Of a DNA stretch of 64,000 bases, positions 4,186 through 61,609 are shown piece after piece. The notes under the pieces are model-generated. The model was not told where the DNA came from, made no database searches, and was given only the letters and a program-made list of their open reading frames with translations. The stretch comes from Nereocystis luetkeana (lineage: Eukaryota; Sar; Phaeophyceae; Laminariales; Laminariaceae): the NCBI GenBank assembly GCA_031213475.1, contig JARUPZ010000034.1, positions 3,371,114 to 3,435,113 of the forward strand. The letters run 5' to 3'. Positions within the stretch are counted from its first letter, which is position 1. Every line of letters begins with the position of its first letter. The position numbers and the translations under genes were made by a program.

Positions 4186-7100
4186 CTGCATCGACGGCAT
4201 GATGATTCGACGTGTGGGGGAAGGGGACACGAGCGACGCCAGCGGCGTTCGTAAGCGATCAACTCAAGCATGTGTTCTAGTGTTGGGTACTCGAGACTTT
4301 CGATATGTCGACTCGATCCGAGGGTCGAAAGTGGCACAGAACCACGTGGGTAAAATAACCCACGTCTAGTGAGGGGTACCACATGGAGAAAAAAACAGGC
4401 GCTAATGAGGGGCTTGATCAACCCCGGGGGATGTTATCGCCATGAGGCCGTATCGAGCCCAACGGTACTTTTTCGCTGAAAATATTGAGGGTACATCACT
4501 GAGTTACTCAGTCAGCGCTGGCTGGGGAGCTCAGTGGTCTATCCCAAATATTTCGAACTACGAAATACGAACAAACACGAAACAAGTACGCACCTGGTTC
4601 GATACACTCTCACAAAAACAACAAAAAAAAACAAAGACACAACAAGCCCATGACATCAACACAAAACACGAAGACTCAAAATCGCCCAACACCAATCACA
4701 CATTCACACCTCTCCCAGCTTACTGCTGCCTCCACCCCCCCTTCTAACCCACCTCCACCCCCTCCAACTTAAACACAAAAACCACAACAACACCCCCCGC
4801 CCCCCGCAACCCTCCCTCCACATGATAGAAACCCACATTGTGCCGGTGCCGCCTGCTGCTGCTGGTGCGCGGGCCGCATGAGCTGGGCCAGCAGCTGCGG
4901 GTTCGCCTGGTAGCCGGCACCTCCCCCCAGCCCCGAGAGGCCCTGACCTGCCTGGGCGGGCAGGGCGCTGTGCACTCCGAGGTTGCGGGCGGCAGCCATA
5001 GCGATCTGGGCTGGGTTGAGATGGCTCTGTACAGGAAGGTTTGTCGGCATATTTCCGCCCATGGCAGGGGCTGTAGGGGGGCGGAAGTAAGGAGAAGGGG
5101 GAGGGGGGACGCGGTGGGGGGCGGGTGAACTTCATTTTCATGCATGGCCGTAGTGGGCGGGGGGGGGGGGGGGAGAACGAAGGGACGGAGGACCCGATGA
5201 TGGAAGGGGCCCTTAGCACCATAAGCATTGTCGCCGCTGCGGTCGATCTACAGCAGAAAATCGATTGTAGCAGCAATGACCAACGAGGCTTTAGCTGTGG
5301 AAGTGCGTCGGTGTAACCGTATTGTAGTAAAGGTAGTTGCGAAAGTGTACTAGTAACACAGCACCACGTCGTCGCGATCGTGCCGTACACAAGACACGTC
5401 AAGCCCCATGTGAGTGTCTCACCCAGGCCGAGGTGAGGGTTCAAAGCACCATGGTGACTTGTCGCCGCTGCGGCTGCGGAAACGTGTCGTTTGCACTCGA
5501 TCGTAGTACTAAAAGTCGTAAGGGGTGGCTGGGGAAGTGCGTCGATTCAACTCTATTGTAGTATTGTGGGTAACCACAAAGTTTTGCCACGTGAACCAAG
5601 CCAAGCCGCGCGTGCGTATGTCACGCAGGCCGAGGTGAGGGTTCTTAGCACAATAATTACAGTCGCCGCTTCTTGCGGCCGCGGGAACGTGTCGATTTAA
5701 CTAGGTCGTAGTGTTAACAAGTCACATGGGGTGACTGTGGAAGTGCGTCGATTCAACTTTATTGTGGTATGGATACCCACAACAGTTGACAAGGTAACAC
5801 GTCAAGCCGCGTCTGCCTGCGTGGCTCACCTAGACCGAGGTGAGGGTTCTTAGCACCAGAACTCTTGTCGCCGCTGCGGCTGCGGCTGCGCCCCCGCCTG
5901 AGCATGAGCATCCAAACCAGACCGCGTCGAAAATAACACACAAACAAAAGGCACAACACACGCGAATCCACAAACCCACAAACACCCACACGTACACGCA
6001 CACGACAACAGCCGAAGGCGCAGGGCGTAGCAGGGGGAGGAAGAAAGGAAAAGGGACAGGTCAACAAAAAAGCCAACCACCGTTTTCCGCAAACCCGAAA
6101 AAACACGCACACGCACACAACAACACACGCAGGAACAACATCGGAGACGGACGGCGCAGGGCGGAGCAGCAGCGGGAGGGGCGGGGGGGGGGGGGGGGGG
6201 GGGGGGGGGTGAAAACGTGAACAAGAAAGCCTACCAAGAGTTTCCAATTAAAAGAGGAACGGGTAGTGAGCCATGCAGCCCCCGCCATCAGTGGCGCGTT
6301 ACGCGAGGGGGGGCTTATCGCCAGGGGGTGGAGGGGAGTGAGTGGGCAGCCACGCCGACATCTAGCGCACAATCAACGGGGATATATACATATAATATAA
6401 ATATATATACCTGGTATATATATACATCGGTCCCTCACCAGAAGTCACTCCCTCCGCCACCCTCCCCCACCCCAACCCTCCCCTACTCTTTCATTCCCGC
6501 CTAATCTGTCACTCTAAGTGATAACAATACTTCCTCTCTCACGCTCGCACCCTCGTAACCACTACCCCCCCCACCCCCCCCCTTCCCTGCCACCCACCGC
6601 CAACTGAACGCCCGCTCTCTCTCCCTCTAACACGTAACGGTAGGCACCCCCCCCCACCAACCGCTATTTCCCCCCACCTCTCCCATCAACGGCTTAATTC
6701 ACCCCTCCCTCCCCCTACCTTATCCTCGGTCGTGCTTTTATTGTTTCTCTCCCTCAACCATACGCATTGCTTCTCCCCCCCCCTCCCCCCCTTTGGAGGT
6801 GTCCCTATTAGGAGTAGGAACGGTGCTCCCTCCGTCTCGAAACGGATGCGTCGTCAATAGTCAAATGACTAAGGCAAGCCACAAATAAGTACGCCCCCCC
6901 CCCCCCCCCCCCCTCCCCCCCAACCCTGCCCCTTCCACCCCTCCCTAACCCCCTGCCTGCTTCACTCCCCTCCCTACCCCTCTTTACCTTTGGCTCATTT
7001 GTAGTCTGTGCCCCTGTTCCACCAACACTGAAGGGGTTCCCCCCTTTCCATCCTTTCCACTCACATCCAATTCCCACGCATCGTCCACATAACGCCCCCC

Positions 7101-8424
7101 CTCACCTTCCCACGCGTTTGCTTACCCCTCTAGCCGTCCCATTCGGCGCCTCCTTCACTCCCCTCCCTAACCCTATCCCTATCCTCTGGCCAACACATAG
7201 GTCGCTATCGCTCCTCTCCACTCCCGCCTATGCAACAACATCCCCCCTACCTACCCAACCCTCCCCCCCCGCGCCTCGAATCGGTTGCACGGTCAACGGT
7301 CAAACGACTCTGCCAAGCCACACAGGGGTGCGCCGCCCTCCTCCGCCCCCATTAACCGCCTCCTTCGCTCTCCTCGCTACCCTTTTCCCTCTGGCTCACC
7401 CATAGTCACTGTCGCTGCCGCTGCGGCTGCGGCTGCGGCGCCCACTCCCCCGGCGCTCCCTGCTGCTGTCGCGCCTGCTGCGACGGTGGTGCTTCTCGTT
7501 AGAGCGGGACCTGCGGCGGTGCTTGCGGCCGCTCCTGTGCAAAGAAAAATGGAAAATGATGAACAACAAATCTCAACAGCTTAGAAGCAGTAATAAACAC
7601 TGTCGTTACTACTACAACATTTACAGTAGTAGTACGAGTACGTACCAGGTGCAACCACGTCAACACCAACACCATCAGAACCGAAAATCACCGTCACCAC
7701 TGTCCCCACCACCAAAACCAACACCCCGCTCCCCCACCCACGTCACCCATTACCATCACCAAAACCAGTACGCCCCTCCTCCCCGACCCACACCTATCAC
7801 GACTCCCATCACCAATACAACCAACTCTCGCCCCCAACCCTACCTCCCCCCCACTCACACCACCGCAACAAACGTACAACGAACACAACACACACAATAC
7901 GACATACTTCGTACCAGGTATACTGTACCAGGTACCTGGTAGTACGTACCAAGTCTATACGTGCTGCTGCCGCATGAAACTACATGGTACAGGTACGTAC
8001 ATCCACGTCAACACCAACTCCATCAAAACCAAAGATCACCATCACCACTATCACCACCAAAACGTCCCTCTCCCCCACCCCCCCCCCACTCATCACCATC
8101 ACCAACATCAACACGCCCCTCCTCCTCTACCCACACCTACCACGAATACCATCACCAACACAACCAACTCCCGTCCTCAAGCCCACCCCCACCCCTCCCC
8201 CAATACACCTCACCACTGCAACCAATATAGGTACAACGTACCCAACACGCACAATACGACACATGAAGCCCATGGCAAAAAGACAGCCTCCCGACCCCCT
8301 CCCCCATTTCCCCCACACGTGTTTCCTACTGAACACACCAACAAATCAAAACGCACCTCTCCCTGGAGTCGCTGCGAGACCTGCGGCGCCTGCGCTCACG
8401 GCTCCTGCTGCGTGCATCGCCGTC
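4028..8424 (-). CDS. U2AF large subunit-like splicing factor, partial (5 exons)
   Basis: Join 8424-8357, 7534-7400, 5897-5830, 5070-4837 and 4185-4028 (minus strand). All introns are GT-AG and the five phases are mutually consistent, giving 221 codons without a stop. The product starts in an Arg/Ser-rich region (RSRSRERRRRRSRS and two further RS blocks), passes a Met/Gly/Gln/Ala-rich linker, and ends in the first strand and helix of an RRM (RELFVGNTPQGTSDFVLLEF, then LNAAMKQ). In the family, U2AF65/U2AF2 binds the polypyrimidine tract and recruits U2 snRNP to the branch point. The RNP2-like LFVGNT followed by an EFLNAAMKQ helix fits RRM1 of U2AF large subunits. The start codon and the later RRMs are not seen. 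The last donor (GTGGGC at 4027) opens an intron that finds no partner in the window. The alternative is another RS-plus-RRM splicing factor. Confidence 0.8.
4837..5070 (-). CDS. U2AF-like exon 4 seen (linker)
   Basis: A 234-nt exon. The acceptor CCCCCCTACAG follows a long pyrimidine tract (about 5073-5190 on the opposite strand) and the donor is GTGGGT. It encodes a Gly/Ala/Gln-rich linker beginning PAMGGNMPTNLPVQ and including NPAQIAMAAARNLG and QLLAQLMRPAHQQQQ. It begins by completing a codon (two bases) and ends with one spare base that the next exon completes. Confidence 0.8.
5211..5900. repeat. About 200-bp tandem array carrying an RS exon
   Basis: Three to four diverged units share GAGGTGAGGGTTC (5430, 5631, 5836), TGTCGCCGCTGCGGCTGCGG, and a GTGCGTCGATTCAAC block. 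The spacing is about 200-206 bp between the best units. On the minus strand each unit corresponds to the U2AF-like RS exon with flanking intron. The array therefore arose by tandem duplication of an exon plus intron. Only the 5830-5897 unit keeps exon, acceptor and donor in phase. Confidence 0.8.
5830..5897 (-). CDS. U2AF-like exon 3 seen (RS end, in satellite)
   Basis: A 68-nt exon with acceptor GCTCAG and donor GTGAGC, phase-matched to both neighbours. It encodes RGRSRSRSGDKSSGAKNPHL followed by GL. The exon is the best preserved member of a roughly 200-bp tandem array (5211-5900). Other units carry decayed versions of the same exon. Confidence 0.75.
5901..7399. other. Intron with homopolymer and C-rich tracts
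   Basis: This is intronic to the minus-strand U2AF-like gene. It includes a 27-base G run at 6183-6209, a TATATA tract at 6380-6426, a C run near 6894-6912, and extended CCCTCCC sequence. No further exon with matching phase was found. Confidence 0.6.
7400..7534 (-). CDS. U2AF-like exon 2 seen (RS domain)
   Basis: A 135-nt exon with acceptor TTTGCACAG and donor GTGAGC. Its first base completes the codon split across the previous intron. It encodes a basic RS block ending RRSRSRSGSDSDYG and leaves two bases for the next exon. The surrounding intron DNA is strongly C-rich on the plus strand. Confidence 0.8.
8357..8424 (-). CDS. U2AF-like exon 1 seen (RS domain)
   Basis: A 68-nt exon. The acceptor GGCAG lies just above 8424 and the donor GTGCGT just below 8357. 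It is read in phase 0 and ends with two extra bases. It encodes DGDARSRSRERRRRRSRSDS followed by RE. Upstream exons with the initiator are not identified. Confidence 0.75.
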
Positions 8425-9279
8425 CTGCCAACAGCACCCACAGGCAGCGGTGACATCATGTCTACCGTTAGCATCATCTCAGAATAGAGGGCAGGGCGGG
8501 TGTGGAAGGTGAGGAAACTACTACTGTATCATACCAGGTACCAACCACGTCACCAGACAAAAAAATCGTATCATGCAGGGCTTGAGAGTGTCGCTTTGGA
8601 TAAGGCGACGGCGGGAAGGCCATTGTGCCTACAGAGGATGCGTGACAAAAGATTTACAAATAGTTATTTTAATGTATTTAATTGTGTATTGAAAATAGAG
8701 TTTATTATTTATCTTCCGTCTTCGGGCGCACGAAAATAAAATCGTACTGGAAATAGAGGTAGTTATTTATTTTCTGAATTCGGGGAGACGAAATAACTAA
8801 ATATTTTCCGAATTCGGGCAGACGAAATAGACCCAAAGTATGCCCGAAGTACCCCCCCTTTGGTGCGTTGATCTCGAGGACTCCTGCGAGAATAAGACGT
8901 TGTCTGGTTCAAATACGCGGTTGACGATTGGATGTTCATCGATGTTACAAACGTATTCTTCGGAGATACATTGGGAAGCCTCTTTGCCCTCGTTCTGGGC
9001 CTGCATATCATAAACAGGGGCCATCGTGATAGCAGCATACTGCTATCAATACGTAGCAGAATTCGGGAGGGGGGTACAGACGGTAGAGCTTTAGACAATT
9101 GCCCAGCTCCCACAAAATGGTCGACATTTACTTCACCATAAAAGGACCAAAAACCAAACCTCGACCCCAATCGCCTAGGATTTTTATCGGAAGGATAATG
9201 GCATGAGGAGCTAGTGTGGACGATCAGCCATTTTGTCCAAACTGGAGCAAGTTTACAACCGTACGTACTGACAGGGATG
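8425..9279. other. Unassigned; GAATTCGGG-type short repeats
   Basis: Three variants of TTTTCCGAATTCGGGCAGAC plus ACGAAATA occur between 8700 and 8830, and one near 32757. The minus-strand frame at 8797-9024 is open and protein-like in composition, but it has no recognised domain or convincing splice sites. It might hold a 5' exon of the U2AF-like gene, though nothing shows this. Confidence 0.35.
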
Positions 9280-9800: not shown

Positions 9801-10418
9801 AGAGCATGACAAGGCAACGTAAGAACTACAAGGTATCAGTCTGAAGAGGAAGGAAGGAGGAGGGGGAAGCCGTAAACCGCATCGCAGCAGAGGTGCACGG
9901 TCAGCATTCCCTTTTCCAATGGGCCTACGGCGGCAGACCGGTAGACCGTTGTCTGGGACACATGCTGACCATGTCAACGGTTTCTTCAAGATTGTAATTT
10001 ACAAGCAACGGAGTTCCTCGCGATATGTCGCCTTCCTTTGATCGAGGTTCTCGTGAGCGATGGTCGACCGCGCTGTATCCTTCGATCACGGGATAGTTGG
10101 TAGTCGGACGTTGGACGCACGTCACGAAAGACTGCGGTTTATTGAGCGTTCGTGTGGTTCCAAAATGATACCGGTAGGCTCGAGGCCGAGAGATAGACCA
10201 TAAACACTGCCGCCTGTAGGACAGCATACCAGGTACAGCACTGCAGAAAAAACACAGAAACACAGCCACAACACAACAGCAGCAGAGTGTGCGCGTATCG
10301 AGATGGTAACACCACAGCCACAACAGCAGTGTTTTAATTGGTTTCTGCGTGTTTGGGGGTTCCGGGGTTTCGGTTATAACCCCTCGTCGTAGGTCTAGAC
10401 CGTTGCTCAAGTACAAGC
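9801..10418. other. No supported gene
   Basis: Mixed-composition DNA with no recognised exon or repeat. One TACCAGGTA motif lies at 10228. Confidence 0.4.
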
Positions 10419-10661
10419 GCAGATGTCAGGAGTGAGGAGCCATGTCCGCCGATTAATAGGGAGATCGTGCACCGGCCAATGATGGTGGGCAAAGTGTCCA
10501 ACACGAAAACCCATTGTACACATGGTATTTTGGCGTCCCTCGTCGCAAATTCAGGGGATGAAACTCTGTTGTCCGTCTAAGTCCAAGGGGTGGGTGACAA
10601 GCAGTGAAAAACCGAGTACCAGGTATTTAGTAGTGATGGTCCAAGTCTCCTGACATCTTCG
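10419..10661. mobile_element. hAT-like MITE, second copy
   Basis: The ends CGCAGATGTCAGGAG and CTCCTGACATCTTCG are inverted. They match the ends of the better supported element at 16115-16279. The roughly 240-bp interior is non-coding and holds a TACCAGGTA motif near 10617. The flanking 8 bp (GTACAAGC and GTGTAAAC) are only partly alike, so the target duplication is uncertain. Confidence 0.55.
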
Positions 10662-12992: not shown

Positions 12993-13244
12993 TTTAATAG
13001 AGTGTCCGTCTTGATTCCTTACTGAGATCCTAATTCTGTGGTCACAGCAGTTAGTTAGCGCAAGAGTTAGAGAAAGACCCGAAACAAGAAATAATCGCAA
13101 ATTCATTTGTAAAGAACGAGTGAAATGGCAGCGGAACGGGTACCAGGTATGTACGACAACACAACAACACAACCAAGACCAGAAAAAAATGTAATGAAAT
13201 GAAAATAATAATCCAGCTGGCTCAAGGAGATCCGAAAGGCTTGT

Positions 13245-13835: not shown

Positions 13836-15329
13836 TTCTGCGTTCGCGGACAGCTGCATCAAGTACTGCTGCTGTGTGTCTTGATATTTCCATAATATTA
13901 ATAGGGCAATTCGGTCGTCGGTCGTACGGAAATTGAGGCTCGTTTACTCACGGTACAGTAATTAATTACTCCATTGATCATATACGTACGCAGAGAAAAA
14001 AAAGAGATGGAATTTGAGGGAAGAAGCTGTGCTGAGGGTCGGGTCAATGGTGTCAATCAACAAGATACTGAACCCAGATCCCAAATTGACGTTACTTGCT
14101 AAATCTTCTGCGCTCGTGTACATCAGCAGCATTAATAACTGGTAGTACGGGAGTACGGGATATCATACCTCATGAGAAAACGACCAACACAACAGACAGA
14201 CTATTAGAGATATTTTTCCAGGAAAATGGTAAATTTCCGGAGTCATCATACAGAGCAGTTCGCGTCATGTGTGGAGTAGTTCAGGCTGAGTTTTCGTTTT
14301 CTTATGATTCAAAATTTTACAGCTAAGCGCTTTTGCTCAGCAAGTACCCAACTCTAAATCCTATATAACAGCCTTCTTGAGCCTGTGCTCGACGTTGACA
14401 TCACAACGAGCGGCCAGCCTTCGCCGAAGTAGGAGGCTCTTAGCTGCTGTCGCGTACTGTACTGAATTTGCTATATTATAGGATGGACCCATTATAAAAT
14501 TAGATATCCAGCCTGGACCATACTTCCTGTTTCTTATTAGGTGTACCAGGTACTGTACTGTACTGCACTGTACTGTACTGACTGTACTGTGCTATACCGG
14601 CCCTGTAATAAGAAAACGGGATACTTGGAGGCTAGATTTCTTATTTAAGAAAGGGGTATGCGCAGCAGTCCATACTATTATACTGCACTGTAAGTCCTCT
14701 TGCGAGTCATTGGCTTCCAGCGCCGACTTCATACCGACCACACCACCCTTTCGTACGCGAAGGCCCTCAAGATGACAGGTTGAGAGAGAATCGAAATGAC
14801 CATCCGTAACCGGCGGCTCTTTTTTTTGCGGGGGCCGTGGCACGGCAAAGCAAGGAGCGATTTCCCTAGTCGGTTAATGCTCCGGGCGGTGGTTGGTGGG
14901 GAGAACCCGAGAGTTGGCGGACAGTTTAAGACTCGGCCTATTAATAGATGCATAGTCGAATACCTAAGAGGATTTCAAGCTACGGAAGGATCAACGAAAC
15001 ACTCCCCCCTGGTGTTTGGAGTTGGGACCGCGCTGTGGTCCACTACAACAAAAAGAGGGGGGAAGTGGTACCGGGGAGTCATTGAAGCCGCCAAACGGTT
15101 CATGGTGAATTGGCACGAGGATGAGGCACAGCTGAGTAGGCAGCGCCGCGAATCCGGCGTGGATGGTGCCCAAGGGAATGGGGGGAGGTGGAGCAACAGG
15201 AGGAGTGGAAGGAAACCTGACCAAGGGAATGGAGGCAAGGGGGGGCAACAGGAGAAGTATAAAGGATACCGCGGTGGACGAAAGTAGGAAGGAGACCGCA
15301 GACAGGGTAGCAAGGCACCAGTGCTGTCA
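13836..15329. other. No supported gene; (TACTG)n tract
   Basis: A short TACTG-type microsatellite at about 14551-14590 adjoins a TACCAGGTA motif. GGAATGGAGG/AACAGGAG purine-rich direct repeats lie at 15170-15260. The plus frame 14796-15287 is open but repetitive and unrecognised. Confidence 0.4.
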
Positions 15330-15470
15330 GGATTACCTTGGGCTGGGTAATCGATCGATATTTTACCCCCATAGCTCAGTACCAGGTAGGTATCGTAACA
15401 CCTTCACGTTTTACGTCGTCCAGGTCACGGGTTCGATCCTCACTTCGAACGTTTCTTTTACAGAAATGCT
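15330..15470 (+). repeat. tRNA-like SINE candidate, copy 1
   Basis: It contains a pol III A-box-like TAGCTCAGTA..GGT and a B-box-like GGTTCGATCC about 50 bases downstream. A proper cloverleaf cannot be folded (acceptor and T stem do not pair), so it is not called a tRNA gene. The head (GGATTACCTTGGGCTGGGTA and ATCGATCGATATTTTACCCC) repeats at 15613. A CCAGGTA unit has been inserted into the A box relative to copy 2. Confidence 0.5.
15380..15388. other. TA-CCAGG-TA micro-insertion (filled site)
   Basis: CTCAG-TA-CCAGG-TA-GGT here corresponds to CTCAG-TA-GGT at 15661-15668 in the second copy of the same repeat. The difference is exactly CCAGG plus one TA. Confidence 0.8.
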
Positions 15471-15608
15471 TGCGCGTGCACACCTAAAAAAACACATCTC
15501 CCTGGATCCCCAGGAAATGAAACGAAGCGGGTAGGTCAGCGGACGGACGTACCAGGTATACGGGGTTCCGATGCCCCAAAGATCCCGCCGTTCAGAGGGG
15601 GAGAGTGT

Positions 15609-15735
15609 TCTAAGGATTACCTTGGGCTGGGTAATCGATCGATATTTTACCCCTATAGCTCAGTAGGTAACACCATCACACCAGGCCGACTATTGTAGTA
15701 AGCTTTATTTTTACCAATCCGCCGGAGGATGACGA
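15609..15735 (+). repeat. tRNA-like SINE candidate, copy 2
   Basis: The head is the same as at 15330, with an intact A-box-like TAGCTCAGTAGG, then a tail AAGCTTTATTTTTACCAATC plus CGCCGGAGGA. The tail recurs inverted at 49256-49291. The B box is not evident, so this copy may be truncated or rearranged. Confidence 0.45.
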
Positions 15736-16700: not shown

Positions 16701-16879
16701 CGTGGCATTGCGTTGCCTTCTCTGTTTTACCTGGTACTGCCTACCAGGTACCTGGTGACAATTTACTGCTGCTTTTTGTTGTATCTCTGCTACTCCTAAT
16801 AACTGCTGGTGGCGTAGTTTCGTGACCCCAGAGCTTGTTTAGATTGAAGACCAGGAACGAACTCTGGTTGTGATGGATG

Positions 16880-18182: not shown

Positions 18183-18295
18183 AATACGGGGGACCATAGT
18201 AAATAGGACGAAATATTGTTAGTAAAAAACAGCAAAATATATGGCAGGTTTTTTGTCTTTACCGTAGGTCCTATTTAATGTAGTCCCCCGTAATA
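18183..18295. mobile_element. MITE1 copy in foldback centre
   Basis: AATACGGGGGACCATAG at the left, inverted as TAGTCCCCCGTAATA at the right. About 112 bp, moderately diverged. Confidence 0.85.
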
Positions 18296-19117: not shown

Positions 19118-19484
19118 CCCAGAGCGAGTCTAACGTGGGGCGTCGTGGGGTGGTCTTGTTTGTACAACCTTTTGCGTTGGCGTTATTGGGCTAAAATAGC
19201 AAATATCACTTCCCATAAACTTGCCAACGAAGCAGAACGGAAACTTCCAAAAATCTTATGGCAACTTTTTTCCTATTTTGGCCAATCCAAATCCCCATAA
19301 AGTTGCTATTTTGGCAAGCAATGTGTCGTTAGAAATGCCCCCAAGAGAAGACTCCATCGTCGTTTTTCCCGAGCGGTTATCTTACACGTCATGCACGGCA
19401 TTCGTACTTGTGAATACTCAAAATGTGCGCCTGACGCGCTCGTTTTTTCACCTTGTAGAACCTGTCTATTGTACTCGTACGACG

Positions 19485-19770: not shown

Positions 19771-20010
19771 GGCCACTCCCAAAAATGACGTGTGTCATAA
19801 ATTGCCGTTTCATGCGGCGTAATAAACTTTGTATTGCTTTTATTATGCGGCGGAAACCCTGCCAAGAGCTCAAAAGGGCCCACACCGGCTCAGGTTGGTG
19901 CTATCATCGTGTACGCGCAAAAGACAGCGGCGGAGCCATGGACCATGGAATTGCACTGACCACTGACCACTCTGCGTACTGCATACCAGGTACCTGGTAT
20001 CAATGTATTA

Positions 20011-20470
20011 TGGGTTTTTGCCAAAATCAGGTATACCTGGCCACTTTTCGGCCAAAATCAGTTACATCCTAAAAACAAGTACAAAACACACCCCAGGAGC
20101 CCTGCTATTGGCCAGGCTGACATCGTAACTGATTTTGGCGCGAAAAGGCCAAGGTACACCTGTTTTTTCTACGCTGTCTAGCTTTCAACTTTCAAGTGAT
20201 TTTGCCCAAATCTGAACCAGTCAGAGCGGCCATACGTACACTGTTTTTTCTCTCCGTGTGCCTCTGCCCTCCCTTGATTGAAATTCTTCTGTATTACCGT
20301 AGAAACTCTACTCGTATGCCGCACGTAAAAGTACGTATTTATACATGCATACAGCGTCATGCGTACGCTGGTTTCACTTTTTCTTCTCTGGGGTGTGCGA
20401 CGTGCTTCATGTATTTAATAGTTGTTGTGATGTGTACTCTGTTGTTTTCTACCTGGTATGGTCACAGCAG
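20011..20470. repeat. R4 arm, left (inverted at 22706-23268)
   Basis: Runs from GGGTTTTTGCCAAAATCAGG to about CTACCTGGTATGG. The whole stretch is present in reverse complement at 22706-23268 with high identity, for example CCCCAGGAGCCCTGCTATTG, CAGTCAGAGCGGCCATACGT and CACCCCAGAGAAGAAAAAG. It carries several CAAAATCAGTTAC-type motifs. It lacks the MITE2 present in the other arm. Confidence 0.8.
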
Positions 20471-21447: not shown

Positions 21448-21640
21448 GTGTGTGTTCTTCACATTAAACCGTTCTTTCTACCCGTCGACATCCAGCACAA
21501 CCAGTGTCCGTGCCGATTCTTCAATCCTAGAAGAGATTACTCGTACAAGTTCTGTGGTCACAAAGCTACGCCACAGTGATAACTACGTTGCCACGTACGA
21601 GGTTGTTTGTTGTTGTTGTTGTTCTCACATTAACTCTCTG
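21447..21640. repeat. R3 fragment
   Basis: GTTCTTCACATTAAACCGTT, TTCTACCCGTCGACATCCAG, AGTGTCCGTGCCGATTCTTC, then CTGTGGTCACAAAGCTACG. Closely matched at 55583-55740 and inverted at 23290-23400. Confidence 0.7.
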
Positions 21641-22705
21641 ACGAAGGAGTCCGTGGTCACACAAAGGTGCTGGAGCCCTAGGAAGATCCCAAAAACAAAA
21701 AAAAACGAACATTCGGCTGCCTCAAAATACACGAGACGGAAAAAGCGCACACAATATAAAACCAATGTGCAAAACTGAACTAACATGGCCGCGGGTATAT
21801 CCTCTCAACTATAATATAGAAGAGTACCCCCGTTCCCACCACTAACCAACTCGTGGCTGCTGACTACAGCGGATGCTGTCTGAAGTGCTGCCTGCACCGT
21901 ACGAAACGCACGGTAGTCGTGAAAACGAAAGAGGAACACACCTGCCTGCTATCTGGAGTGCTGTCAGAGTGAAGACTCGCGGATATGCAGTGAAAAAAGG
22001 AGCAATCGAACCTTACTGCCACACGAATATCAACGATCGCCATCTCTTCCTGGACTGTCTGACACAAAAAGGTGCAGCACAGTTATGATACCACGTCCCT
22101 GATAATTGCGTAGGTTATTCCCCATGAAGGGTATACAACTCGTTAAACTACAAAAACCAGTGACGAGTACCGGTAGATACTATTCTGCCTCGTGAAAAAC
22201 AAAACCAGGAAAAAACAAACTATGACTGCTTCTCTCGTGATGATAGTGTGCGCGCAAATCATGGGTCTCCATGCACCGTCTTCCTGCCGCTCTTCATGGC
22301 CGCATCATCGCCTTGGCCCAATCCACCCGCTCCTTTGCGCGTGCACTCGTTGCCATTCCCTTCCAGTCGTTTCCCTTTCTCCGTCATCCTGAAAAACAAA
22401 ATGCTCCTCGCACTTGCGGTTCTGATCTGGGAAATAAAAATTCTCGCGCAGGGGGAGGTCAATCCGTCTCTTCCCCGCACGTCGACGCTCAGTCTCCCTC
22501 CTCCCTCGTCGTCGAATCCAGCCTCCTACCGGCGCAATAGACTGTGCCGTAGTGTGGCCTGTGGTGGCGCCTGCCTCCGCGCATGGACACCCCGATTGAG
22601 CATTGCTGCTCTGCCGCAGCTGCCTAAAAAGACGCGCGAATCGTAGGTCTCCGTGCCTGACGCACCACGTACGACCCAACTCTACTGCCGCCTGAGCCTC
22701 GCGGC
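21641..22705. other. No firmly supported gene
   Basis: GC-richer DNA at 22250-22690 is open on both strands. The minus frame (22757-22305) contains RIDLPLRENFYFPDQNRKCE and the plus frame is Pro/Ser-rich. Neither shows a known domain or clear splice signals. TGTTGTTGTTGTT at 21608 is a short simple repeat. Confidence 0.35.
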
Positions 22706-23268
22706 CGAGGTACCAGGTATGCAGTAAGCAGGTAGAAAACAACAGAGTACACATCACAACAACTATTAACCCTTTTAGGACTGCAGTCTCCTTTTGGGGA
22801 CAATTGGGGGCAAACTACTTGGAATTAGAACGGTTTGTCCCCAAAACGGGAATGGAGTTCTAAAGGGGTTAAATACATGAAGCACGTCGCACACCCCAGA
22901 GAAGAAAAAGTGAAACCAGCGTACATTGTATGCATGTATAAATACGTACTTCTACGTACGGCGTACGAGTAGAGTTTCTACGGTAATACAGAAGAATTTC
23001 AACCAAGGGAGGGCAGAGGCACACGGAGAGAAAAAACAGTGTACGTATGGCCGCTCTGACTGGTTCAAACTTGAGCAAAATCAGTTGAAAGCTAGACAGA
23101 GTAGAAAAACAGGTGTACCTTGGCCTTTTCGTGCCAAAATCAGTTACGTTGTCAGCCTGGCCAATAGCAGGGCTCCTGGGGTGTGGTTTGCACTTGTTTT
23201 TAGGATGTAACTGATTTTGGCCGAAAAGTGGCCAGGTATACCTGATTTTGGCAAAAACCCTATTTTGA
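22706..23268. repeat. R4 arm, right (inverted copy of 20011-20470)
   Basis: Reverse complement of the left R4 arm, ending CCTGATTTTGGCAAAAACCC. It is longer because a MITE2 sits at 22766-22872. Both outer ends are flanked by TAT-like bases, so 20011-23268 may be one long-TIR composite of 3.26 kb. Confidence 0.75.
22766..22872. mobile_element. MITE2 copy with demonstrated TTAA duplication
   Basis: The filled site reads CAACTA-TTAA-CCCTTTTAGG...GGGG-TTAA-ATACATG. The empty site in the inverted R4 copy (20420-20440) reads CAACTA-TTAA-ATACATG after complementing. This shows directly that MITE2 inserts at TTAA and duplicates it, as piggyBac-type elements do. Confidence 0.92.
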
Positions 23269-23269
23269 A

Positions 23270-23400
23270 AATCTTTACCTGGTACCTGGTACAATTTACA
23301 GTCGGATTGAAGAATCGGCACGGACGCTGGTTGTGCTGGATGTCGACGGGTAGAGAAAACGGTTTAGGGGTGAAGAACACACACAAATACACACGTTTTG
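23270..23400. repeat. R3 fragment (inverted)
   Basis: GATTGAAGAATCGGCACGGA, CTGGTTGTGCTGGATGTCGA and CGGGTAGA..AACGGTTTA are the complement of 21447-21560. A double TACCTGGTACCTGGTA motif abuts it. Confidence 0.65.
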
Positions 23401-28860: not shown

Positions 28861-30579
28861 GCGCCGCGGTTCGTGCGATTTGCACCGTGAAAAGCCTTGG
28901 TTTTTTTCCTTCGTCTTGTTTTTGGGGGGACTCAGTCACCGCGGGTATTTTAACGGTAGTGATCTTTGATTGTATCCACAGGGTATATGTTCAGCCGCCA
29001 CAGATCACCCCGGGACGGGATCAACTCATCGTGGTGCTTACCGGGGGGTTTTTTTTTGGCGGGATCCAGCCACCACGGAACAGCCCCATCAACATTCCCT
29101 GACTTGGTTGTACCTGGTATGTGTTAGAAATGCGTTTTTTTTTCACATTGCCATGCTTGTAGCTTCCGGCCGCGGGTCTTTTCCCGCGCTATCGGCTGCG
29201 CGCATACACCACGGAGCAAGATTGGACTCCGGCCGGGCTCCGTGGCGCCTGCTCTAGACGTTCAAAGTCGCGGGGTGCTGGCTCTTTTCGCGGGATCGCT
29301 TTCCGCCGCGCCAGAGCCAAGCAGGTCGATGGAATCCCCCCAAGCACAAAATCAGCTGTCCGCTCTGCTGCTGCTGCTGCTGCTGTATCGCACCGCCCCT
29401 CCAGCTCTCTAGCTGTCTACTTGGCGGCAGCCACGGTACAACAGCAGTCGCGCATCAAACCCTTCCTTTTTGTGACGGCCACGGGCGTTCTGTTTGTGCG
29501 TGTGTGCCATGAAAACTGTTTCCCTACGTATGAAAAGGAAGGAACACATGGTTGTGAACGGTGCAATTATGGCTTGGGGCAAAACGATATAAAACCGCAC
29601 TGCCTCGGAAGTTGCAAGAGCAACCGCGCAGCCACGGTACACACTTCAACCAGGCATTGATACAACAGCGGTACAACAACTGCAGCAGCAGCAGCACAAC
29701 ACCAGTGGTATAAGAAGCACCCGCGTTTCACGCTCTCGTTTAGGGGCAGCCACGGCGGTACTTTCGTGTTTTTGCGCTCTGTGTTCTCCAGGAGGAGATG
29801 CATTCGTGACAACGTTTTCACGTCTATTGATAAAATCAGCCAACACATTGTGGTACAGTACGTAGTACCTCATCTTGTCACGATGCATGTAGATCGGAAC
29901 ACCTGATGACGGTGTTGCCCCTTTTTAGCTTGCAAAACCCTCGTGATTGCAAGCCCACCACATTCCGAAGGGGAGCCTATGAGTAAATAAAATACACATA
30001 CATTGGGCGCCCGCGGTCAGGAAACAATATGATGAGAAAAATAGGCTCAGATCGGCACGAACACGAAAATCGGGTTCTGAAACACAGGTCAATAGTGGGA
30101 CCAACTCTCAATATACGATACAGTTGGATCATTGTCGGGAAAAAAATAAGGCAGTTGAGCCTGGACAACAAACTGGCGTTTCTTAACGCCTGCGTAATAC
30201 AGCGGTCAGCTCTGCCACCAAATATGATGGCACTGCTTGTTGCACGGTTGGTGTATTATGATAGTGAGCTGTCGCTAGGAACTCGGGCAAGCAGGATATT
30301 TGTGTGTGTCGTCAACGTGTGCGCGTCCGTGGAAGGTTCCAAGAAAGTGATCGGTGTTGCTTTTTTTCGCAAGATTTCGGCGGTCGTGACATACATCCCT
30401 TTCAACACCAAGTAAAAATACGGCTTCAGCCAGCGCGAAAGGGGGCCCCGACATGGTGGCGCAGTGTGAATTAGAAAACTCGCAGTGTAGCACCCAAGCT
30501 ATAGACGACGCACTCCCCGCTGGGATAGACTTTAGAGCCGATTTCTCCGATACAACGGGGGCACACACAACGATATAAC
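28861..30579. other. No supported gene
   Basis: Contains a (CTG)n run at 29363-29384 and a paired GCAGCCACGG string (29427, 29630, 29746). The plus frame 30029-30415 is open for 128 codons but unrecognised and uses no splice context. Confidence 0.35.
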
Positions 30580-31691: not shown

Positions 31692-32303
31692 GTTGAAACT
31701 CATCAAAGATGGAAGCTGCCTGATATGTCAGACACGCTCATCGGGCGCGCTCGGTATGGATATTTGGTTTTGCTTTGCACATACTCGAAGTACCGTAGAA
31801 CGTCTCTGCACGACTGCTGTGCTTCTGTATAGTATTATAGTACGCGTATCTCAATGCGCCACCGGAGGTCAGACCTTGCAGCAGTTTAGACAGTCCGAGC
31901 GTGTACGACCACGTGTACGTGTGATATCGTCCGATGCATTGGGTCGGTACGGGACTGTCAACGCGTACTCGTCCAAACAATATCCTCCGATCTCCGAACA
32001 AAATTAACCGGTAAATCGTTCAGATCCTGGAAACACACACGACTGTCCACATGTACTGTTTCAATACAAATGCTTGCAAACAAATTGACCCTTGGATCTT
32101 TTAGATCTCGAGTACGAGTACGGCGGGACTGTCAACGCGTACCAGTAAATAATCCCCCCGAGATGCTGCGAGTTTGAGCAGTGTATTGAACACCTGGTGG
32201 CTGGTACCTGATATCGATCGGCAATACCTGGTACCTGGTACAGAACAACCGCAAGGTAATACTGACAACATGGCAGTATTAGTAGCAACAGCAACAAGTA
32301 CAA

Positions 32304-32705: not shown

Positions 32706-33095
32706 TACTTGAACGTTTTAGTGGGTGGACTGCTGATACCTTTTTTCTCTCGTGTTTTTTTCCGAATTCGGGAAGAAGAAATGGCGACTTCTGGGAATGT
32801 CTCGCCAAGATTGTTTTCGGCAGACGCGTCGCTGGGCGTGTTCGGTACGCCCTCCCTGTTGTCGAAAAAATCAGCGATGAAGTTCGTCCGAGGGGGTGTG
32901 TTACGGCTCATTTTGGTACGGGTTATGGTAGGACGTACAAAACTGTCAAATGAACTGACAGCCGGTAGAGTCTATGGTGATCAACCGTCTGTTAGAAATA
33001 TGAGCACGAGCAGTATATGCAGACATTTCAACCTTTATTCGAGGAAATGGTTGACTCGGAAATTAAACATACCAGGTACCATAGGTATCATATCC
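32706..33095. other. No supported gene
   Basis: Contains a CCGAATTCGGGAAGAAGAAA string related to 8790-8830 and a TACCAGGTACCATAGG motif at 33070. No exon is supported. Confidence 0.4.
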
Positions 33096-36073: not shown

Positions 36074-37425
36074 GTACGTCCCTCGCGATGCGTAGACCCC
36101 TGACTTACCCCTTGCTTACTTACCCCCCTTACCTTACACAAGCCTTGCTCGTCCTTTGCTCATCGCCTTTCTCGTCCCTTGCACGTTCCTTACATACCCG
36201 ATTTCAGTCCCTTTTTCGCCCCCTGCTTATCCCTAAGTCTCATTTTACTCCATCGTTGCCTTAAGTACTCATCCATTGCTCGTCCTCTAGTTGTACCCCG
36301 TACCAGGTACCTGATACCTGGTACTTACTAATTAATCCCTTACCTTACCCTGGCTTACCTCTCGCTCGTTCCTTGCGTTGATCTTACGTACCCCTTACCC
36401 GCCTCTTACTTGTCCCTTGCTCAGCCGGTACTCACCCTTTCACTCGTTCTTCACTCGTCCCGTGCTCATCTCTTGCTCGTGCCATACTTGCCCCTCCCCC
36501 GCCCTTTACCACTCCTCTCTCGACCCTGACGTACTTGTTCCTGACTTCCCCCTTACTCACCCGTTACTCGTTCCATATGTACCCCTTATTTACCTCTTCA
36601 CCCGTCCCTCTCTCGTCCCTTACCCACCCGTTACTCACCCTCTACTCATCCCTCAGTACCCCGTACTCACCCCTCCTCATACTCTGTCCTGGGACGACTC
36701 CGTGCCACCGCAGGTATTGTTGTCGACCAAGGACGAGATCTACAAGTCCTGGAAGCGTTTCTCCGACTTCAAACTTCTCGCGGAGTACGCCAAAATATCG
36801 GACCTACGAGATACCGTCACTGTTTGGAGACAAATACAGCAGGTGCGACGACTATTATTCATAGGGCTGTGGACCGGGGGGGGGATGAGGGGGGGGAGGG
36901 GGGGGGGGTACGCATTTGTTGCTTGCCTTAGCCCTTTGACCGTTGACCACGCATCCCTTTCGAGACGGAGCACCGTTCGTACTCCTAGTAGAGGCACCTT
37001 CAACAGTTGAGCGCTCATTACGTGTTTTTCCATATATTACATACCAGGTAGTAAGGAGATTGCTACGCTGCTACAACGCCTCTGCTGTTTCGTCCGTCAA
37101 CCCCTCCGCTTGTTCTTGACTTTTTTTTTCGCTCATCGTCACTTGTCCATGGAAGGTGGAGAAACTATCGTAACTCATTCCTGGTAACGAAAACGAAAAA
37201 GGTGTTTAACCCCCCCTCCGCCTCGAAAACACGACCGAATGCCGTTGCGCGATGCAGACTCAGCGGTGGTTTCGGTGTTTGGAGGCGAACTACCTCAAAA
37301 ATAAGTGCATGCTCCTAGAGAAATTTCTGGCGCAGCTTCTCTTCGCGGTTCCCACGCCCTCGTTGCTGCTGACGTTCGTTGGCGCCCAGCAGCCAGACTT
37401 CACCCGGCGACGAGGACAGCCTTAG
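35915..37425 (+). CDS. PX-domain protein, C-terminal part (3 exons)
   Basis: Join 35915-36073, 36714-36842 and 37258-37425. All introns are GT-AG and phase 0, giving 151 residues and a stop. The PX fold is visible: RVIRVSSYTSHAEFQ into VLLSTKDEIYKSWKRFSDF (the W-R-F-S-D-F strand and Arg that bind phosphoinositide), KLLAEYA, then after the second intron RWFRCLEANYLKNKCMLLEK and FLAQLLFAVPTPSLLLTFVG, the usual R..LE.YL helix and C-terminal helix. PX domains bind PI3P and related lipids on endosomal membranes. Upstream exons are not defined. A Cys-rich piece at 35746-35800 (GAHCSNVSCDSC) could be the edge of a zinc finger, but its phase does not join simply to 35915. The nearest homologue and full architecture are unknown. 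Confidence 0.8.
36074..36713. other. PX intron, pyrimidine-rich short repeats
   Basis: Repeated CTTACTCG/TCCCTTGCTC/ACCCCTTAC strings fill the intron, and a TACCAGGTACCTGATACCTGGTA cluster sits at 36300-36324. Open frames here are low-complexity. Confidence 0.6.
36714..36842 (+). CDS. PX gene exon b
   Basis: 129 nt with acceptor CACCGCAG and donor CAG|GTGCGA. 43 residues include WKRFSDFKLLAEYA, the PX signature region, and DTVTVWRQIQQ. Confidence 0.85.
37258..37425 (+). CDS. PX gene last exon
   Basis: 168 nt with acceptor GATGCAG, ending with TAG. It encodes TQRWFRCLEANYLKNKCMLL, EKFLAQLLFAVPTPSLLLTF and a short basic tail. Confidence 0.8.
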   Translation, partial: TQRWFRCLEANYLKNKCMLLEKFLAQLLFAVPTPSLLLTFVGAQQPDFTRRRGQP

Positions 37426-42691: not shown

Positions 42692-42802
42692 TAGTAATAG
42701 CGACAGCTGCGCTACCTGGTATCTATCTTACACCGTAATGGTTACACATACGCCAGCCCTACATCATAATGGATACAAATTACGTCGTCAGATGTGCAGC
42801 TA

Positions 42803-42984
<182 letters not shown>

Positions 42985-43734
42985 GGAACACTGGGGAACA
43001 GAACGCCAATGCATATAATCGGCGCTGTACCACGTATGAATGTATACGTGAGTTTAGAGTGCTTGCTCTGTAGAATACAAGCAACAAACTAGAGAGGTGC
43101 GAGGCAAAACGTATGTACTGTTTGCTGTAGACCACAACAACAACGATTTGCGTTGCCGTGTGTGCTGTTGTTGTAGTTATAGTTACCCACACCTGCTGTT
43201 GTTGTGCTATTTATATTATCATCACAAGTGAAAATCATACGCGTGCACGCATGTACTTTTACTGTATACCCTATGTGGCCGGTTGTCATTATTAATAATA
43301 GTGTTGTGCCATCCGTCGGAAGAAGGTGTCGTATCACGTTGTACTTACTTGCTGCAGACGAGTAGGCACGGTAGCTCTCTATCGCACGATGAGCGTTTTT
43401 TTTTCAACGTTTTTTATTAAAAGAACAGTTCGGTGAGAGCTCAGAAATAATTTCCCATAATAATACCAGGTAGTTGTTGGTCTTACACCAGGTAGGATGT
43501 ATACAAGCTCGGTCACCTCTCTTTTTGTTCTGGACAGAGGACAACAAGCCGTGATCACCATAACAATCAATAATAATAGGCGGGTCTCTTTCCTTCCCCC
43601 CCGGCAGCACCACCAACCAGCTCTCTCTCTCTCTCTACTCACCACGCTCCCCGCCCCTTCGGCGACGGAAACTACTACTTACTGCCTGGTACTTTTATTT
43701 TAAAACTGCTTTTGTAGATACTGCCAGTTACCAG
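42985..43734. other. No supported gene
   Basis: Short TTGTTGTTG and CTCTCTCT runs and two TACCAGGTA motifs (about 43466 and 43490). No exon. Confidence 0.4.
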
Positions 43735-44365
43735 GTAACTATTAACTGTTGCTGTTCTTAACATTACATCGTCCTTTCTTTCCTTCCTACCCAGCTTCAT
43801 CAGTACACCCAGTGTCCGTCCTGATTCCTTATCCTAGAGAGATACCAGGAGGAGGAGGTACTGATTCTGTGATCACAGACTGACTGTGAGACTGAAGATT
43901 TTTTTTTTTATATAATCGCAAATTCAAGTGTCAAGCAAGTGAAATGCCAGCGCAGCGTACCGGGTACGAGAACACGAGAACACAACACACAATACAAGCA
44001 AGGCCAGAATAATCAGAACATAAAGACAATAAAAACAAAAAACAAAAATCTGAAATGAAACAGAATACAAAAACGACGCAGCAAGGACTCCAGAAAGGCT
44101 GCCTGACGGAAAGCACAAATACATACATTCGTACTGAGGAAGGGCAGAGATATCAGCTGCGGGGACGAAGCAACAACACGAAGGAGAAGGAGATACGGGC
44201 AACAGCCTGTAAGAGCTAGTCGAACCGATACCTATTACGGGGGGCCATAGTTAACAGGACCAAATATTGTTAGTAAAAATGGTGAAGCATATAGGTTTTT
44301 ATGTGTACCATAGGTCCTGTTAACTATGGTCCCCCGTAATAGCCACCCGATCTATCATACGTAAC
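43735..44365. repeat. R3, second long copy
   Basis: Collinear with 12740-13835 but without either MITE2 insertion. It carries a MITE1 at 44233-44341, where the other copy has the empty site CGATCTAGGCACCCGATCC. Confidence 0.7.
44233..44341. mobile_element. MITE1 copy with empty-site partner
   Basis: 109 bp. The flanks CGATACC-TA and TA-GCCACCCGATCT correspond to CGATC-TA-GGCACCCGATCC at 13807-13825. The target is therefore a TA dinucleotide, as for Tc1/mariner elements. Confidence 0.9.
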
Positions 44366-45678: not shown

Positions 45679-45780
45679 TTACAGACAAGCCAGTACATGT
45701 TCATGTATACCTTCTTGGGCACGAGTGGTGCTATACCGGTACAAAACACAAACAGTACTATTAATATTAACACCCACTAC

Positions 45781-45915
45781 TATTACGGGGGACCATAGTA
45801 AATAGGACCAAATATTGCTACAGTATAGTGAAAATAGCGAAATACCTGGAAGATATGTTTTTGTGTCAACCGTAGGTCCTACCAGGTACCAGGTATTTAA
45901 TATGGTCCCTCGTAA
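45781..45915. mobile_element. MITE1 copy carrying a micro-insertion
   Basis: TATTACGGGGGACCATAGTA..ATATGGTCCCTCGTAA. It is longer than other copies because the right arm holds an extra CCAGGTACCAGGTA, and the centre is also slightly enlarged. Confidence 0.9.
45880..45895. other. TA-CCAGG-TA-CCAGG-TA micro-insertion
   Basis: Other MITE1 copies read GGTCC-TA-TTTA here. This one reads GGTCC-TA-CCAGG-TA-CCAGG-TA-TTTA, two units of the same 7 bp. Confidence 0.85.
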
Positions 45916-46291
45916 AACACATGCCAGAGGCAATGATCGAAGTAGCATGGAACTACGAGTGTACGTAATGCTTGCTTGATGTGCCTTCCTCTGTCGTCTG
46001 TCGCAGCCCTTCGTCTTGGGGAGCTGGCCGTTGATCAGTTGATTATACTGGTTGGTGCTACCGCTGCCGCTCTGCTCTGCTCTGCTCTGCTCTGCTCTGT
46101 TCTAGACTACGAAACGGTCATCATTTTTTTCTGTCAGCTCGGGTCGTTAAGTGTTTACGCAATAGGTCACCTTAGTCAAAGAACTGATGATCTTGCACCT
46201 GGGGCCAAAACCGAGGCCGAAACGTCCAAGACGGCGAATTCACGATGTAACACCAATCAAAGCAAGACGCCAACACAACAGCCTTCCGTCC
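45916..46291. other. No supported gene; (TGCTC)n
   Basis: CTCTGCTCTGCTCTGCTCTG at 46072-46098. No exon. Confidence 0.45.
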
Positions 46292-56504: not shown

Positions 56505-56577
56505 AAAAAACCTACCTGGTATATATTTAACCATTTTGCTAACAATATTTGTTCCTCTTTACTATGGTCCCCCGTAA
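56505..56577. mobile_element. MITE1 3' half carrying a micro-insertion
   Basis: AAAAACCTA..TATATTTAACCATTTTGCTA and TACTATGGTCCCCCGTAA match the 3' two-thirds of MITE1. The 5' end is missing. Confidence 0.85.
56513..56521. other. TA-CCTGG-TA micro-insertion
   Basis: Other copies read AAACC-TA-TATATTT (2355, 12890 and 57915 regions). This copy reads AAACC-TA-CCTGG-TA-TATATTT, a clean 7-bp difference. Confidence 0.88.
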
Positions 56578-57245: not shown

Positions 57246-57870
57246 TTGAAAAGTACTACAAGCACGGGTGTCCCAGTAAGCACGGGAACGGTACTATTAT
57301 ACGTGTTTCGGAAAAATAGTCAGCAAATTCCTAGTCACTTGCCAGCCACATACATGACCAAACAGGATCGCATTGTGCTTTATCTTGAGGCAAAGCGCGA
57401 GGACGTTTTTAATGAGACAAGTCCGAGAGCAAACAGCGAGACCATTTTCAGCCAGTAGGCTTAAAAACAACTTCCTAGCGGGGTGCGTGCAGGCTGCTGT
57501 TATTTAACCACGGTAGCACGCCAGCCTGTCCGCTTTGCGCCTGCTCTCTGTGTGTCCGTTATCGCCACAGATTACATCACCAGTGCATGCGAGACCTGCT
57601 CAGAACCAATTTCGACCAACCCGGCGTCTACTGAAGCGAACGGGCCTGCGTTAGAGCCTCAGACGTGTTTATTCGCAAGGCGTCTCGAGTTGGCCGCGGT
57701 GTATGTGCTGCAGTGGGTATTTCAATTCTCTGTGCCTCGCGATTCGTGAGTGTTGTTTTTCTGAGAGGCTGTGGGATTCTTGTCATCCTTTCTTCTACTC
57801 ACTTTCTTCTTACACACTGTACCTGGTATACGACTCCAAACCCACACGGCCTACAGCTAGTACGAAGTAA
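57246..57870. other. No supported gene
   Basis: Open plus frames 57246-57458 and 57483-57749 lack domains. The block at 57580-57760 (CCAACCCGGCGTCTA.., GTTGGCCGCGGTG.., CTGTGCCTCG) is repeated in diverged form at 58180-58330. Confidence 0.4.
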
Positions 57871-57979: not shown

Positions 57980-58805
57980 CAGCAGGTATGAGGTACACTT
58001 CTCTCGTCCGCCACTCTAGTAAATAATAGTGGTATTTGGCTAAGAAATCTCTGAGTTGCGCGGTGCGTACAGCCGCCCATAATGTAAATAGCAGCAGCAC
58101 TCTGTACGTCTGTCTGCCTTCTGTGTACGTATCGTCTGTCGTCGCATGCATCCTCGATTGCGAGAGCTGCAGATAATCGATCTAAACAAACCCGGCATCT
58201 ATATACAGACGCGAACGAGTCTGCGCTAACTCGTTGTGCTTGTTCCGTTGCAAGCAGTGTCGAATTGGCCGCGGTGGCCGTGCATAGTGTGTAGTTCAAT
58301 CTCCTGTGCCTCGTAATTCGTGTGTTTTCAGAAAGGCTTGTTTTGTTTTTCGATCCTCTTCTCATTTTGGTTTCCCAGTGGCATTAGTTAGTGGACTCTG
58401 TCAAGACAGTTGATTCAAACCCTCGAATCTCCTGCTTCCAACTCTGGTCCAACGCCTACTCCCATCGAGCTTTAGCCATCCTTTCTCTAGAGTTCCTGCT
58501 CAATCCAAGTTCAAGCACAATTTGGCGCTGTCGCCAATCAACCATCAATTCCACAGTTGTTGGTCTAACCTATGAAATTTGGTTCTGAGGCTTCAACCGG
58601 CATTTCAATATTCCGTCGTTAGTCGCTATCCACTCACCAATTCAATGCTTCGTCTGGGTTATTTTACGGGGTGCAGCTCTTGTCGCGTCTACGTCGAAAC
58701 GTCTACCTGGTATACGTTTTATTATGCGGAATCTACGTTAGGTCCTGCTAGTTTCCACCGGTACACAACACACGTACGAGCTACGACATGATAACTACAG
58801 CACCA
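57980..58805. other. No supported gene; diverged duplicate of 57580-57760
   Basis: CGGCATCTATATACAGACGC, GAATTGGCCGCGGTGG and CTCCTGTGCCTCGTAATTCG parallel the earlier block. No exon. Confidence 0.4.
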
Positions 58806-60978: not shown

Positions 60979-61609
60979 CTGCTGCAGGAAGGGGTACAGA
61001 GCAGACTCTCCGTACTGACACACAACACACTACATACTACATACATACCACAGAGCAGCAGTACAGCTCTACGATTGGTTGCGAATGCACGACGAATAGT
61101 TATATCATCTACGCCTCTTACCCAACAGACTGTAGTGTGAAACGCGAAGAGGTACTCGAAGGGGTGTCGCCGGGACCAGCGTGCAGAGCAACCCCTCTGA
61201 CGCCAGACGCTATCCTATGCGCTTACAGCAGTATTAATAGTACTGGTGGGTAACTTCGAGCTTGCCCGGCCTCCTTGACCAATTACCATTTAGCACTCCA
61301 CTATTATACGTAGAGTATACCTGGTAGGGTTTACCATGCTCGTCGAGGGAGGAGGAGATGGTTTTCGTCAAGGGGGGAGGAGATGGTACCCTCCTCCTTC
61401 CCCCCCCCCCCCCTCTGTCGAAGGGCCCGAAATGAGACCCTTTTAAGACCCCCCCCGGCGCCCCGATTTGTTTTTTTTAAATGTATCAACTATTAATACC
61501 AGGTATATATAGTCAGTCGAACTCACAGCTGACGTATTTCATAATTTTATAAAATGAGGTGTCGCACGGATTTTGCTGTCTCCGTGTCGAAATACGTCGG
61601 AGTTTCTTC
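60979..61609. other. No supported gene
   Basis: GGAGGAGATGG direct repeat (61351 and 61377), C runs near 61400 and 61450. TACCTGGTA at 61319 and TACCAGGTA at 61498. Confidence 0.4.

Follow-up and report, generated by a model that had tools for sequence, protein, structure and literature searches.

What kind of event leaves the same seven base pairs at a TA site in one copy of a short repeat and not in the others? The question arises at positions 45880..45895 of the 64-kb stretch of kelp DNA analysed here (hereinafter the window, C34:3371114-3435113; C1, C4 and C34 are contigs of the kelp genome G000), where the sequence is confirmed to be TACCAGGTACCAGGTA. It consists of two consecutive units, each comprising a CCWGG core with A or T at the centre and one TA, located within a copy of the repeat MITE1 (45780-45918), whereas the other aligned copies are empty. 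Units were scored as TACC(A/T)GGTA; the A form, TACCAGGTA, is denoted + and the T form, TACCTGGTA, is denoted -, so that the double at 45880 (A,A) is +, and mixed or empty sites carry no sign. The first-pass annotation took this locus for a TA-targeted micro-insertion of CCWGG and one TA, and filled/empty pairs in repeat and duplicate copies support that description well. The observation is real, very abundant and insertional, and it is larger than first claimed.

The window contains 36 units (20 of the A form and 16 of the T form), compared with a mean of 0.37 and a maximum of 3 in 200 dinucleotide-preserving shuffles of the window and an order-3 Markov expectation of 0.39 + 0.28, in line with the excess originally noted by eye (about thirty against roughly 0.5 expected). 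In a 264-kb sample, made up of the window and a further 200 kb from its genome, no 9-mer with at least 30 counts has a higher observed/expected ratio than TACCAGGTA, which reaches 49.6 times the order-3 expectation. The whole-genome count, singled out in the first-pass annotation as a point on which its claim could fail, is far above expectation: the 465,085,209 bases in 1,987 contigs contain 182,395 TACCWGGTA, one per 2.5 kb, against 1,744 for the reversed-pattern control. Several other TA-core-TA words are mildly enriched in the 264-kb sample (TACAGTA, 2.8x; TACGAGTA, 3.8x; TACCGGTA, 5x), and these are possibly further scar classes or simple repeats.

The 36 units of the window fall into 28 clusters, seven of which include more than one unit, with all spacings inside those seven being 7 or 14 bp. 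Apart from the double at 45880, direct doubles (T,T; -) are found at 32225..32240 and 23276..23291, the latter on the opposite side of a large inverted repeat that is flanked by a convergent double at 19984..19999. Other convergent doubles are present at 7926..7941 (TACCAGGTACCTGGTA) and 16742..16757, where the final dinucleotide is TG, and the run at 36301..36323, TACCAGGTACCTGATACCTGGTA, combines an A-form unit at 36301 and a T-form unit at 36315 with a one-base variant core, CCTGA, between them in the same 7-bp phase. Thus, of the four tandem examples given originally, the one at 19984 is exact; that placed at 7932 starts at 7926, that at 16742 ends in TG rather than TA, and that at 36301 is the longer sequence just described. 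Additional A-form units (+) are located at 7912..7920, 8532..8540, 10227..10235, 10617..10625, 14544..14552, 22711..22719, 33070..33078, 37042..37050, 43464..43472, 43729..43737 and 61497..61505, and T-form units (-) at 6408..6416, 16728..16736, 29111..29119, 42713..42721, 57820..57828, 58704..58712 and 61318..61326.

The insertional nature of the unit follows from comparison of repeat copies. MITE1 is a 111-bp repeat with 25 copies retaining both ends in 337,720 bp, of which 12 are exactly 111 bp long and one, which carries a single unit, measures 118 bp. The copy at 45780 differs by exactly two units, and a partial copy differs by exactly one T-form unit (56513..56521, -) that is missing in the others, as originally claimed; this partial copy, at 56480, carries its unit at a different TA from the 45780 copy, and a copy at L006:2762 (L006 is contig JALZWD010000061.1) carries a single T-form unit at the same TA as the 45780 double. 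The third comparison offered at the outset, the A-form unit at 15380..15388 (+) against the matching empty TA at 15664..15665 in the copy 15604-15680, indeed yields CCAGG+TA; overlooked was a second difference in the filled copy, TCG+TA at 15393-15397 (by eye). The repeat in question looks tRNA-like by eye, and neither ARAGORN nor Rfam returns a match for it. An additional pair is formed by a variant unit, TACCAGGTG, at 7643..7651 (+) and a copy near 7998 that lacks the 7 bp, the difference being CCAGG+TG. Thus, the filled copies contain extra sequence at a TA together with a duplicated TA, with one TG variant. Outside MITE1, single-unit differences were detected at C1:220518, C1:223233, C1:224454, L030:4378 and window 20450..20458 (T form, -), for which a related repeat on C1 lacks the unit; two-unit (14-bp) differences at C1:244424 and L030:437 occur in copies of one repeat, and further filled/empty cases are C34:3306397 (in MITE1) and C1:250438. 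Some units are shared between copies: that at 13141..13149 (A form, +) is common to a related copy near 43960, where it has changed to TACCGGGTA.

A scan of all 154 unit runs in the 337,720 bp found an aligned partner for 32, of which 9 have a clean empty partner and 15 a unit-sharing partner (some have both), the remainder being unclear or shifted. Two of the nine are weak, namely, window 15550..15558 (A form, +), for which C1 provides one empty partner at 76% identity and one sharing partner, and G000:C34:3279950, with an 8-bp gap; the sites at 45880, 56513 and 15380 were not scored as clean because of the flank rules of the scan. In the alignment of repeat copies with strict flanks, where units were sought solely at multiples of 7, units account for 5 of 10 seven-bp indels and 2 of 3 fourteen-bp indels, and the other five 7-bp indels are each different from the rest, so this second point on which the original claim could fail does not refute it either. 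A looser scan also yields gaps of 1-6, 8 and 11 bp that overlap units; many of these are alternative alignments of the same places. Among 25 duplicate pairs (17,618 aligned bases, 1,125 mismatches), four runs are shared and five differ, three of these against an empty site, one against TACGTA and one by an altered TA. With 3-4 events against 1,125 mismatches, a small sample, this corresponds very roughly to one unit per 300 substitutions.

The units also recur in a second assembly. Positions 15-3640 of L006 are 99% identical to C4:10948045-10951679; 37 of 3,676 aligned positions (about 1%) differ between L006 and C4, and all three L006 units are present in both, which makes an artefact of one assembly unlikely. 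Beside one of the units, G000 has 6 bp extra that can be read with equal ease as TA-CTGG-TA and as CTGGTA duplicated in tandem, and therefore this difference was not counted in favour of the excision reading developed below. The first 3.6 kb of L006 holds MITE1 and MITE2 copies and the three units, and the remainder is bacterial-looking by eye; L006 is the one contig in the prokaryote genome collection that matched the MITE1 pattern. Thus, L006:1-3640 is kelp nuclear DNA heading a contig filed under a Flavimaricola MAG (g3_MAG_00016), and the kelp/bacterial junction is a contamination or a chimera. A kelp-microbiome study reports that its assemblies also contained host kelp DNA, and the naming scheme seen there fits g3_MAG_00016 (PMC9238374). 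G000 is accordingly a kelp genome, probably that of bull kelp, Nereocystis luetkeana.

The origin of the tandem forms was originally attributed to later insertions into the TA created by earlier ones. This proposal gains support from the whole genome, where doubles occur in all orientations, far above the controls: 9,539 direct (4,800 + 4,739), 4,522 convergent and 1,856 divergent, compared with 1 + 1, 0 and 0, respectively (each triple enters these counts twice). Together these make 15,917 adjacent pairs among the 182,395 units, and in the 337,720-bp sample 138 of the 154 runs are single units. The orientation ratio is 60:28:12, whereas independent re-insertion in random orientation predicts 2:1:1, and the inequality of the convergent and divergent classes is not predicted by random re-insertion and weighs against the excision reading. 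The convergent class is swollen by one repeat family, of which 40 copies, counting the query, were scored at 94-100% identity; at least 7 of its C1 copies coincide with listed convergent doubles. The leftover asymmetry would fit a slight bias towards T at the third position outside the target TA. Slippage cannot give rise to the inverted doubles, and duplication may account for some of the direct ones.

The empty sites show a target preference. At 138 reduced sites, the TA is preceded by A in 47% and by T in 5% of cases, against 30% and 20%, respectively, around all TAs; in general, the flanks favour A/G before the TA and C/T after it. Of 272 flanks, 70 have a further TA at a distance of 7 bp, compared with 21.3 expected, and at 14 bp a TA is twice as frequent as expected. 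Among the 5-mers listed between such spaced TAs, few are one base from CCWGG. Thus, a unit rebuilds the favoured spaced-TA context, which may explain the adjacent pairs.

Taken together, these features make it probable that the units were left by the excision of a Tc1/mariner-like transposon that targets TA and whose cleavage creates a 5-nt CCWGG overhang. What is observed is the exact CCWGG+TA at TA sites, the fixed core, the A/T centre, the tandems in all orientations, the target preference and the scale; from the form of the footprint we infer the element, its transposase and the overhang. Under this model, each unit would record a single round of insertion and excision by a DNA transposon of the cut-and-paste type. 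The element would enter at a TA, duplicating it, and its ends would both read CCAGG, or both CCTGG, inward. On exit, the transposase would cut the 5' strands 5 nt inside the element, so that both flanks would keep an identical 5-nt 3' overhang capable of self-pairing at four of five positions. The flanks would then anneal around a central A.A or T.T mismatch and be ligated, and mismatch repair would convert the centre to A or T, with TA-CC(A/T)GG-TA as the product. The scar would set a second TA 7 bp from the first, which is the spacing favoured by the targets, and scars would stack in tandem for this reason. A single step, the annealing of 5-nt overhangs, would explain the core and its A/T ambiguity, how the TA comes to be duplicated and why fill-in products are rare. 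As in Tc1/mariner footprints, the core occurs in either orientation with an ambiguous centre, as the 20 A and 16 T forms and the doubles in every orientation indicate; those footprints are about 2-4 bp long (2-3-nt overhang), whereas the core here is 5 nt. Given that 5 nt is outside the published range, the claim is that the unit works like a Tc1/mariner footprint and not that it is a typical member of this class.

Complete filling-in would give TACCAGGCCTGGTA, of which there are hardly any copies (10, with 1 for the control), a scarcity that fits annealing of the ends over filling and blunt joining and adds no extra support. Another variant, TACCAGGGTA, occurs 10 times against 0.78 expected in the sample and 11,422 times against 409 genome-wide, the latter count being inflated by a tandem array with 528-bp spacing and by the repeat family holding convergent doubles. 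The array, at G000:C1:1305185-1308353, was seen via its TACCAGGGTA copies. The enriched variants, which besides TACCAGGGTA include TACCGGTA and TACCATGGTA (counts below), resemble partial copies of CCAGG ends, as imprecise repair could give, and to that extent favour the excision model; ordinary one-base indels may supply part of their excess. Changes of TA to TG or CA at unit ends outnumber changes in the core; the excision model offers no explanation for this trend, which we count against it.

In 338 kb searched for spans of up to 8 kb, mostly within 10-kb pieces, no element with terminal inverted repeats starting with CCWGG was recognised. Six exact 12-nt inverted pairs were found; two lie inside longer inverted repeats, and the other four, whose match ends after 12-13 nt, resemble units paired by chance. 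At the protein level, the DDE_3 profile has no matches in the genome; Transposase_1 has none either, and its control was equally silent. The DDE_1 (pogo/CENP-B type) profile yields 28 genome matches, several with long open frames, which could not be tied to the unit: the one 1.1-kb stretch read beside the best match contains neither TACCWGG nor CCWGGTA, looks like more coding sequence and may belong to a host gene. Within the window, sets of 6 and 92 open frames compared with Pfam gave no match, and searches for tRNAs and against Rfam likewise returned none.

Several specific candidates for the parent were rejected. The inner palindrome at 20451-21447 has a unit at its edge (20450) that a related repeat elsewhere lacks, and it was discarded for this reason. 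It is one of several large inverted repeats and palindromes in the window (the others at 17598-19307 and 19984-23291), with arms of about 0.4-0.5 kb that are 77-92% alike; C1 contains similar inverted repeats with arms up to 2.3 kb. MITE1 was rejected as well: its ends read CTATTACGGGGGACC, and the frequency of an extra TA at 7 bp in its flanks is 0.07, against a background of 0.08 (46 ends). A second short repeat, MITE2 (22778-22866, also 3481-3572 and 13334-13423), is TTAA-flanked by eye and has ends CCCTTTTAGAACCGC in a piggyBac-like layout; it is present in one arm of a large inverted repeat, the other arm being empty. The third candidate occurs at nine C1 places and is bounded by a convergent double and, 294-307 bp away, by TACCAGGGTA. 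When this stretch was searched in the genome with about 100 bp of flank, with 40 of 317 candidates scored, homology spanned the full query in 39 of the 41 rows listed, query included (of the two exceptions, one stops at 503 of 516 and one is a 66-bp piece); thus, the units of this stretch sit inside a longer repeat. L028 contains an older relative, for which no clean alignment at the units was obtained, and the folding of the stretch is unremarkable (z -0.83). Exact 16-mer matches in viral contigs (L001-L005) were taken as chance, given the size of the database.

The first-pass annotation left the choice between an excision footprint and a very short self-propagating insertion. The footprint is the most likely origin, with no source element recognised in the 338 kb, and we found no positive evidence for self-propagation. 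Nevertheless, the contrast between 170 units and no recognised parent in that sequence is what a micro-element would produce if a transposase or recombinase added the 5-bp core and TA directly at a TA, there never having been a long element; the uniform core, and the fact that the unit recreates the 7-bp TA spacing its targets favour, point the same way. We consider such a route unlikely: the near-palindrome with an A/T centre is expected from annealed excision ends, 4-nt and 6-nt variants are in excess, and no enzyme is known to us that would insert a free duplex of 5 bp. Moreover, if scars become fixed neutrally, many of them could stem from a small number of active elements, so the rarity of the parent is not strong evidence. 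In the most far-reaching form of the same idea, which we regard as similarly improbable, the 7-bp unit itself would spread, with an enzyme adding CCWGG+TA and each insertion rebuilding the preferred target, a mobile unit of about 182,000 copies that has no interior. Replication slippage, or a dispersed 7-bp microsatellite, would accommodate the share of direct doubles (9,539 of 15,917, above the 2:1:1 expectation) and the 6-bp difference between two individuals that is readable as a CTGGTA duplication; it is highly implausible as the main cause, given that the large majority of runs are single, that an empty TA offers no first unit to slip on and that inverted doubles could not arise in this way, although it may add some direct doubles.

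Scars of a TA transposon could also be made otherwise, by CCA ends with a 3-nt overhang and a one-base-overlap join, or by a 2-nt CC overhang with one added base. Overhangs of 3 nt are the published norm (PMC7827188, PMC3878927), and two of the side products expected from this route are enriched in the sample, TACCGGTA (core CCGG) with 27 sites against 5.65 expected, five of them in one repeat, and TACCATGGTA (core CCATGG) with 3 against 0.43; a third, TACCTAGGTA (core CCTAGG), is not (0 against 0.14). However, TACCATA, the simple outcome of a 3-nt overhang, is scarcely above expectation (50 against 38), and a single dominant 5-nt product is simpler with 5-nt cohesive ends, so that this route, too, has little chance of being the correct one. 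As for a functional motif under selection, for example, a dyad protein-binding site, it would be compatible with the near-palindromic 9-mer and its even spread across the window. This reading is disfavoured, to the point of being very improbable, by the exact presence or absence of 7 bp in MITE and duplicate copies, by the inverted stacking of units that share a TA and by the sheer number of copies.

If the units are indeed scars of a cut-and-paste transposon, one kelp genome holds a nearly uniform and unusually dense record of about 182,000 transposition events, from which the target choice, excision repair, rate and age of such a transposon would be measurable in a single genome; one transposon would then be a notable source of small insertions. 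A 5-nt overhang, if true, would widen the known range for TA-targeting transposases, for which the published overhangs are 2-3 nt (PMC3878927, PMC2170065) and the published footprints 2-4 bp (PMC7913693). Among the matches listed from open-licence PMC papers, we found none that describes a scar class of genome-wide extent; in the same collection, no paper was found that links TACCAGGTA to a transposon footprint. The motif is also absent from the brown-algal papers among the matches listed, which carries little weight.

The kelp units have clear counterparts in known systems, with differences in each case. With ISY100 and other members of the Tc1/mariner/IS630 group they share the TA target and, if the proposed kelp cut is correct, a staggered cut inside the 5' ends (PMC2170065); the cut described for that group is 2-3 nt inside, compared with the putative 5 nt here, and the kelp genome has no DDE_3 match. 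The Stowaway MITEs and Osmar elements of grasses similarly leave behind pieces of their termini flanked by TA, and a new insertion into the TA of an earlier footprint has been described for them (PMC1925063). As that account presents them, these footprints differ from one another, each being a 1-4 bp fragment of a TIR at an individual locus, unlike the one nearly uniform, genome-wide core in the kelp. The closest parallel is Sleeping Beauty, whose transposase nicks three nucleotides inside the element, such that the three-nucleotide 3' overhangs become the footprint (PMC7827188); C(A/T)GTA is the tabulated footprint of both this element and Frog Prince (PMC3878927, Table 1). Because this is the same form, the original statement that no described class matches the unit goes too far: the TA target, the duplicated TA, the short near-palindromic core and the A/T centre are common to both (PMC3878927, PMC7827188). 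In contrast to Sleeping Beauty, the kelp core is 5 nt (CCWGG) rather than 3 (CWG), one base pair longer on each side, its parent element is putative, and about 182,000 copies are present in one genome; thus, the apparent novelty lies in the length of the core, 5 nt, and in the copy number.
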